Source: an uncultured Myxococcales bacterium (GTDB taxonomy: Bacteria; Myxococcota_A; UBA9042; DTJE01). From it: a DNA stretch of 64,000 bases. The stretch lies in contig CAINDP010000082.1 in assembly GCA_903847405.1 (NCBI GenBank), forward strand, positions 1-64,000, given 5' to 3'. Shown one piece after another: positions 1-35,686 of the stretch (the stretch's first letter is position 1; each line of letters starts with the position of its first letter). A program made the position numbers and the translations under genes. The notes under the pieces are model-generated. The model was not told where the DNA came from, did no database searches, and saw nothing but the letters and a program-made list of their open reading frames with translations.

Positions 1-460
1 CGTGAAGCCCGGGGAAAATGGGGACAGGCTCCGGGAAAATGGGGACAGACACCGATTTCCCCCCGGGGAAATCGGTGTCTGTCCCCATTTTCCCTGTCCC
101 CATCTCCGCCACGCGCGGTCGGCGTACATCGGTTTCCAGCACGCTCAGGTGCAGCCGTTCACCGCGGTGCAGCACGGTCGAGCCGTGCTGGAAGCACGGG
201 GCGGGTTCACGTGCGGCCTCCCGGGCCTGCGCCTTCTTCCGGATGCGGTCCCAGGTGCGGCCGATCCAGGCGCGCTTGGATTTCAGGAAGGTCAGCGCGC
301 CCTGGGGGCCGATCAGGGCCGCGCCCTCGGGGATGACCAGTTCGACCCGGTCGGCGTAAACGAACAGGCTGATGCGGCGTGCCTTTGCGCTGCGGCGGAT
401 CGACCCCGGGATCGGCGAGCCGTCCGCTGCGTGTCCGAAGGTGTCGGTGGTGTCGATCAT
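1..460 (-). CDS. YgjP-like (DUF45) metallopeptidase, N-terminal part, with a repeat inserted in frame
   Basis: Translating the minus strand from the ATG at 460-458 gives an open frame to the left edge with no stop; GAGGAG lies upstream. The first 120 or so residues (RRSAKARRISLFVY, then VELVIPEG, FLKSKRAWIGR and a G-x-V-x-x-RGERL strand) resemble the N-terminal region of the YgjP-like/SprT-type zinc metallopeptidases. The HExxH catalytic part of that family would lie beyond the window. From about residue 121 the frame reads straight through a family A repeat cluster, giving the low-complexity peptide MGTGKMGTDTDFP then KSVSVPIFP in a loop between predicted strands. Whether the gene still works is unknown. 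Family assignment rests on motif memory. Confidence 0.6.
   Translation of the reverse strand, partial: MIDTTDTFGHAADGSPIPGSIRRSAKARRISLFVYADRVELVIPEGAALIGPQGALTFLKSKRAWIGRTWDRIRKKAQAREAAREPAPCFQHGSTVLHRGERLHLSVLETDVRRPRVAEMGTGKMGTDTDFPGGKSVSVPIFPEPVPIFPGLH
11..103. repeat. Family A palindromic repeat cluster inside the YgjP-like gene
   Basis: A forward copy (33-62) and an inverted copy (65-94) of the GGGGACAGACACCGATTTCC unit face each other around CCCCGGGG. A partial copy lies at 11-27 and a partial tail at 95-103. The whole is nearly self-complementary. It is the same composite arrangement as at 11157-11250. Confidence 0.9.
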
Positions 461-35020: not shown

Positions 35021-35686
35021 ATGTCCAGAACCGCCCGCGTTGTCGTGACCGGATGCCCCCACCATGTGACCCAGCGCGGAAACTATCGCCAGCCCGTATT
35101 CGAGTGCGATGCCGACCGCTGGAGGTACCTCGATCTTCTGAACATTGCTGCGGCGGAAGGGGATATCGATGTTCTGGCGTGGTGCCTGATGGACAACCAC
35201 GTGCATCTGGTCGTTGTCCCACGGAATCCTGAGTCAATCGCCCGTTTCCTGGGCCTGGTGAACGGTCGATATGCCTGGGAGGTTCATCGGCGTTCAGGTC
35301 GCAGTGGGCATTTTTGGCAGGGGCGGTTCCATTCATGTCCCCTGGATGATTCCCACTTCCTTGCCGCAGTTCGGTACGTGGAACTCAATCCCGTTCGGGC
35401 GGGATTGGTGGCTCGTGCCTGGGACTATCCATGGTCCAGCGCGCGCGCCCACGTTCTGGGGGTGTATCCCGAACCGCTGCATAGGACGCCTCTGCTCGAA
35501 GCCGAGACACGGGACTGGAAGGCGTTCCTTGATGCCTCGTCGGGCGACGACATGGAGAGCGCTGTTCGACGATCCACGGCAGTTGGCATGCCGGCGGGGG
35601 ACACCGGATTCCGCGATCGACTGGAACAGGAACTCGGACGTCCCCTGCGAATTCGACCGCCCTGGAGGCCCCGGAAATCCGCCTGA
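35021..35686 (+). CDS. REP-associated tyrosine transposase (RAYT, Y1 transposase family)
   Basis: 221 residues; ATG at 35021 after GGAGGAAGCA. The HUH motif appears as NHVHL (H60, H62), and the catalytic tyrosine is probably Y119 in RYVELNPVRAG. The N-terminal CPHHVTQRGNYRQPVF and the WSSARAH segment are also characteristic. These single-strand nucleases act on the palindromic REP sequences that surround them and are usually single-copy, domesticated relatives of IS200/IS605 transposases. It looks intact. It is the probable agent that spread the family A repeats, which is inference from proximity. Confidence 0.93.
   Translation: MSRTARVVVTGCPHHVTQRGNYRQPVFECDADRWRYLDLLNIAAAEGDIDVLAWCLMDNHVHLVVVPRNPESIARFLGLVNGRYAWEVHRRSGRSGHFWQGRFHSCPLDDSHFLAAVRYVELNPVRAGLVARAWDYPWSSARAHVLGVYPEPLHRTPLLEAETRDWKAFLDASSGDDMESAVRRSTAVGMPAGDTGFRDRLEQELGRPLRIRPPWRPRKSA

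Follow-up and report, generated by a model that had tools for sequence, protein, structure and literature searches.

A REP doublet lies in frame within a YgjP-like metallopeptidase gene of an uncultured Myxococcales bacterium

Introduction

REPs of both the GTAG type and the CGTC type have already been reported inside genes, polA included, where dimers and grouped repeats encode 20-30 amino acids (section on intragenic REPs in PMC3733652). Genes for DNA synthesis and repair recur as hosts in that section of the 2013 survey, which names DNA polymerase I, uvrA, recB and dnaE2. For the REPINs of Pseudomonas fluorescens SBW25, 14 of 1,067 16-mers are described as overlapping genes (PMC3116915). 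REP-associated tyrosine transposases (RAYTs) are described as cleaving single-stranded REPs in vitro (PMC8266576).

Here we analyzed a stretch of 64,000 nucleotides (the window; positions 1 to 64,000 of contig CAINDP010000082.1, here C82) from an uncultured Myxococcales bacterium (assembly GCA_903847405.1). An earlier note on this DNA had proposed that a REP-type palindrome, of a kind normally found between genes, interrupts a YgjP-family gene without loss of frame and at a place that might tolerate it. Our analysis supports this proposal, as its testable parts hold; the spot is possibly tolerant. The coordinates of all features are collected in Table 1.

Results

The ygjP-like gene is open across the repeat

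The minus-strand frame that starts at the ATG at 460 was said to run without a stop through two facing repeat copies, and it is indeed open across the repeat as far as base 2. Its translation (...DVRRPRV AEMGTGKMGTDTDFPGGKSVSVPIFPEPVPIFPGLH...) contains both peptides that had been read from the repeat, MGTDTDFP and KSVSVPIFP. The inverted repeat in window 1-110 has arms at 20-62 and 65-107, which are 86% complementary and 2 nt apart. A single hairpin is predicted for the element, with z = -10.5 for DNA and z = -9.5 for RNA; 0 of 200 shuffles were equally stable.

Window base 1 is also base 1 of C82, one of 273 contigs of a 5.65 Mb draft assembly, and ygjP is cut off there because the contig ends. 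Bases 1-78 of contig C202 are the exact reverse complement of window 1-78. The joined frame (C82 and C202) encodes 294 amino acids, is stop-free until after residue 294 and includes the HExxH motif expected beyond the left end of the window, as HEVAH on C202; neither a stop nor a frameshift, either of which would have pointed to a pseudogene, was seen. The assignment to the N-terminal part of a YgjP-like protein is borne out by the other half, as the remainder of the gene matches PF01863 (C202:114-440, E 1.2e-30). In the joined protein, this Pfam domain scores 124.1 bits (cutoff 26) over residues 166-274, corresponding to profile positions 97-205 of 207. The domain thus lies downstream of the insert, and HEVAH stands in a conserved setting.

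We consider it extremely improbable that these halves were brought together by an assembly artefact, that is, a chimeric join at the repeat. Within the sequence retrieved around 257 of the 262 exact copies of the repeat word, no second instance of the 78-nt overlap turned up, not even when 30-mers taken from its two ends were used as queries. In addition, both halves align end to end with one gene of a same-genus genome (G001), the downstream neighbor of ygjP is the same in both genomes, and five other intragenic copies lie within single contigs. What would fit an artefact is that window base 1 is a contig end inside the repeat, that 20 of the 129 element clusters, window 1-110 included, sit at contig ends, and that G001 and the window genome have different genes upstream of ygjP. 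The in-frame palindrome in ygjP is confirmed as a real observation.

Table 1 Features of the repeat family, its host genes and the RAYT-like gene. C, contigs; L, element clusters.
Feature	Contig or cluster	Position	Strand	Remark
5' part of YgjP-like metallopeptidase gene	C82	1..460	-	ATG 460-458, through repeat to contig end
REP doublet (REPIN/BIME-like)	C82	8..107 (outer limits approximate)	.	words AAATGGGGACAG at 16-27 (+), 37-48 (+), 79-90 (-)
One-mismatch word of the same REP doublet	C82	94-105	-	
Second REP doublet, same family	C82	11161..11245	.	between convergent coding stretches
Single REP, same family	C82	31026..31037	+	one base past TAG stop codon
Single REP, same family	C82	31632..31643	+	between divergent coding stretches
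Two copies of variant repeat GTGGGACAGTCACC	C82	34841..34885	+	upstream of RAYT
RAYT-like gene	C82	35021..35686	+	Y1_Tnp (PF01797), the genome's sole match; HVHLVV and RYVELNPVRAGL
Inverted copy of variant repeat GTGGGACAGTCACC	C82	35720..35733	-	downstream of RAYT
Main-family REP word	C82	35810..35821	-	~120 bases downstream of RAYT
P-type ATPase	C179, L123			within one contig; in-frame repeat
mutL	C21, L044	2690-2701		within one contig; linker between DNA_mis_repair and MutL_C
PMT_2-like protein	C65, L065			within one contig; 24.8 bits, below cutoff 26.1
Unknown 1105-aa ORF	C127, L117			within one contig; in-frame repeat
PfkB kinase	C190, L126			within one contig; in-frame repeat
polA	C252 (5'-3' exonuclease domains) / C35 (DNA_pol_A)	L135 28-54, L053 27-38		26-nt overlap
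Spermidine-synthase-like gene	C122/C168			across contig ends; 24-nt overlap
Repeat-encoded C-terminal tail, BPD_transp_1 transport permease	L067	2453-2502		
Repeat-encoded C-terminal tail, ABC ATPase	L091	2548-2598		
Repeat-encoded C-terminal tail, CoA-ligase-like protein	L100	2339-2386		
Repeat-encoded C-terminal tail, Iso_dh (leuB-like) gene	L106	2212-2253		

A same-genus ortholog lacks the insert

Among 52 genomes, its own included, the N-terminal half matched only its own genome and G001 (59% identity). Where G001 reads RRVRV-EAGDG-FRVSVPRG, the window protein reads RRPRV-AEMGTGKMGTDTDFPGGKSVSVPIFPEPVPIFPGLH-VSVPRG. Alignment with an uninterrupted homologue thus gives a same-genus ortholog without the insert and a net 29 aa shorter at this place. 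The remainder of ygjP is collinear with G001, except for nine more residues at the end of the window protein. Unrelated sequence of similar length, which would have argued against an insertion, is absent from this place in G001 and in seven plasmid-borne homologues. The latter (of 12 listed among 537 matching records) showed no insertion of similar size when compared with E. coli YgjP, which itself is without this N-terminal region.

The C-terminal half is 83% identical to G001, with dN 0.100 and dS 0.354 (NG86), and is therefore constrained. The N-terminal half is less constrained (dN 0.349, dS 0.704; NG86). These values argue for a ygjP that would have been functional over the divergence as a whole; as dN/dS spans all of that divergence, a recent loss of function could still have occurred. 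We regard it as unlikely that the insertion inactivated or impaired ygjP and left a recent, still undecayed pseudogene whose frame is open by luck, given the absence of a stop or frameshift and the conservation of the catalytic motif and C-terminal half. Some features would suit such a gene: the 29 extra residues fall in the poorly conserved N-terminal half, and the 107-nt stretch folds at -82 kcal/mol in the mRNA, a hairpin that could hinder translation.

The pattern RRVRV-EAGDG-FRVSVP in G001 suggests that the insert probably sits in a beta-hairpin turn, or between two beta strands. An AlphaFold model of the N-terminal half only, run on the single sequence, reached pLDDT 45.6 and placed its last strand within the insert, which is too poor for siting the insert; a PDB search gave 0 matches at E 0.01.

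The repeat belongs to a REP family in a genome with one RAYT-like gene

The word AAATGGGGACAG has 262 exact genomic copies, compared with 0 of the reversed word. Neither same-genus genome (G001, G002) contains it, and none of the ten other family genomes has more than one copy. The 109 clusters away from contig ends comprise 61 inward-facing pairs, as expected of REPINs, along with 30 single, 17 tandem and 1 mixed. Between 67 facing neighbors, the inner gap is 24-29 nt in 36 and 135-139 nt in 12 (median 27 nt). The family thus combines high copy number, a mostly intergenic location, inverted hairpin doublets and a RAYT in the genome, as REPs and REPINs do.

Facing words about 135-139 nt apart were seen, among other places, at L051 2379-2540, L054 2507-2667, L075 2361-2522 and L035 172-361. 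The spacers of this class have common motifs such as GGACTTGCG or GTGGGAACG, and the class may represent a longer mobile element with these REPs at its two ends.

Neither tetranucleotide of the described REP super-families was regular at the outer ends, and we did not assign the repeat to either. Of 191 flanks, 7 had GTAG in the 12 nt adjoining the outer word and 3 had it further out; for CGTC, the corresponding counts were 12 and 20. TAG alone was found 24 times next to the word and 5 times further out, due to neighboring stop codons. No reading frame of the repeat contains a stop; this also holds for 9.7% of palindromes shuffled at equal composition and is unremarkable as an adaptation. Rfam returned 14 microRNA-type matches, none of which reached its gathering score. 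A text search of the literature for the word GGGGACAGACACC gave no description of the repeat, though papers seldom print such words.

The RAYT-like gene has its Y1_Tnp match at 35045-35383, and the two motifs listed for it in Table 1 we take to be the HUH and tyrosine motifs. Its best NCBIfam match is the RAYT model NF047646 (74.3 bits, slightly below the cutoff of 80). The immediate flanks of the gene carry not the main word but the sister word GTGGGACAGTCACC, which has 16 copies in the fetched stretches, so the matching of this RAYT to the REPs is inferred. Y1_Tnp was found in neither G001 nor G002 and is present in four of the ten other family genomes, which have at most one word each; Y1_Tnp alone is therefore no predictor of this repeat. 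Because RAYT and REPs are both missing in the nearest relatives, they would have been gained in this lineage, or lost in both others. Taken together, the RAYT at 35021-35686 is likely the mobilizer of the REP family. Among the best 80 of 207 loci of RAYT relatives, GGGACAG occurred at least twice in 34, compared with 13 for the reversed word; GGGGACAGAC occurred just twice in all and GGGACAGTCACC never, and the origin of the family was not found among these loci.

Eight elements lie within genes, all of them in frame

The stretches around 257 of the 262 words formed 129 clusters, or 126 elements once three pairs were recognized as ends of one broken element. Coding score alone yielded one and then four intragenic candidates, as linkers score poorly. 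One open frame that is coding on both sides was found at nine of the 129 clusters, and 12 contig-end entries had a coding frame on their inner side. From the nine, we kept L044, L065, L117, L123 and L126; L085, L116, L119 and L127 were rejected by eye, being located before a likely start codon. Six of the contig-end entries were kept (three genes), L040, L058, L073, L113 and L130 were rejected for the same location, and L125 fell in neither group.

Eight of the 126 elements are thus intragenic, in agreement with the mostly intergenic location of REPs. Five lie within contigs and three across contig joins, and all eight are in frame. The chance of this would be (1/3)^8 = 1.5e-4, a flattering figure since in-frame copies are easier to recognize. 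With 51 weak-signal clusters outside the homology check, this regularity also speaks against an inactivated ygjP.

In polA, the repeat lies between the 5'-3' exonuclease and polymerase halves. Another contig-end pair also overlaps by 26 nt, and the 26- and 24-nt overlaps fall in the palindromic core; the polA and spermidine-synthase-like joins therefore rest on complementary in-frame halves. The latter case is the weakest because its N-terminal half (C122) is without a Pfam match. The G001 ortholog of the P-type ATPase (86% identical) is without the repeat. Its loop at this place differs and is shorter, the protein here having a net +6 aa, suggesting that a section of a variable loop gave way to the repeat. 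The PMT_2-like gene has a partial 38% match in G001, and the 1105-aa ORF matches nothing in G001 or G002 and no Pfam family.

Four of the eight copies (ygjP, P-type ATPase, polA and PfkB) use the same reading frame, KMGTDTDF. This could be taken as a sign that the repeat serves the host as a mobile peptide module, its KMGTDTDFP/VSVPIFP segment being kept for a benefit to the host protein. We find this very unlikely, because other frames are in use too (KWGQTPFS, NRCLSPFP and ENGDRHRFP), the host genes are unrelated and most copies lie outside genes.

Most genes end before the elements

Of 97 gene ends towards elements, 63 stop before the element, 23 stop within 6 nt of the first word or inside the element, and 11 pass beyond it. 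Among these 11, the gene carries on past the element in seven, and the other four end in a short repeat-encoded tail behind a complete or nearly complete domain. Of 85 gene ends for which distances were listed, 51 have their stop within 12 nt of the word. No clear preference for TAG stop codons was apparent there (TAG:TGA 24:27, compared with 98:126 in long ORFs).

We also searched for broken genes with a Pfam scan of both sides, covering 43 proteins and three upstream ones. No split gene was found at any of the 23 same-strand sites; some might occur among the 51 clusters of weak coding signal. Wherever Pfam families were assigned to both flanks, these were different, except at L067, where a separate BPD_transp_1 domain is present on either side. 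At L036, L054, L068 and L131, the downstream ORF was without a match, but the domain upstream of the element is entire or almost entire.

Discussion

We propose, with a probability of about 0.82, that a REP doublet moved probably by the single RAYT of this genome entered ygjP in this lineage and is tolerated in frame. The doublet would be a non-autonomous mobile hairpin, REPIN-like, and its entry would have taken place in this lineage, given that the same-genus relatives have neither the repeats nor RAYT. On insertion, a few codons of the host gene would have been lost or replaced, the overall change in length being a multiple of three. As none of the frames of the repeat has a stop, ygjP would still be read through, and the peptidase domain would be preceded by a net 29 additional residues. 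Insertions that break genes would be purged, leaving most copies between genes and a few in-frame survivors in loops, linkers and tails.

Purifying selection on random insertions would account for eight of eight intragenic copies being in frame, and no role of the peptide is needed. Most likely, then, the insert in ygjP is tolerated and has survived purifying selection. Judging from sequence, the peptide is presumably translated, the protein may have retained activity and the insert may be neutral.

This system offers a clean comparison of genes with and without the repeat, as uninterrupted sites serve as controls; such sites, seen here for ygjP and the P-type ATPase, are available because both same-genus genomes are without the repeats and RAYT. 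For annotation, it is a warning that a REP may be part of a coding sequence and that contigs of a draft assembly may end within a gene of this kind. Because the draft assembly often breaks inside repeats, genes decorated in this way can be split over contigs and annotated as fragments.

If repair genes are assumed to make up 1-2% of all genes, the presence of polA and mutL among eight decorated genes would have p ~0.003 to 0.010 (0.022 at 3%), a post hoc comparison. A doubtful but broader idea is that REPs are caught or kept in replication and repair genes beyond chance, independently in unrelated bacteria, with partly impaired repair proteins perhaps giving rise to mutator or transposition-permissive lineages that let the repeats spread, and the decoration being the footprint of the REP burst. 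If such a bias were true, the old side remark on REP-decorated repair proteins would become testable. The polA and mutL pair is of extra interest as it is in line with the published tendency.

The GTAG and CGTC REPs (as described in PMC3733652) resemble the present family in being mostly intergenic palindromes near gene 3' ends, associated with RAYTs and in some cases located within genes. They differ in their outer ends, which here bear AAATGGGGACAG, and in host lineage. Neither YgjP nor MutL appears among the hosts in the intragenic-REP section of that survey, its supplementary host list aside. The SBW25 REPINs (as described in PMC3116915) share the inverted hairpin doublets, the high copy number, the mostly extragenic location and the RAYTs, but have another sequence and are spaced differently (the median inner gap here is 27 nt). 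Rickettsia palindromic elements (as described in PMC10969869) are likewise palindromes that keep the frame of unrelated genes and seem to be tolerated, but they are ~150 bp long and nearly half of them are intragenic, compared with 8 of 126 here. Intragenic REPs are thus known though rarely documented, and the ygjP case adds a new example.
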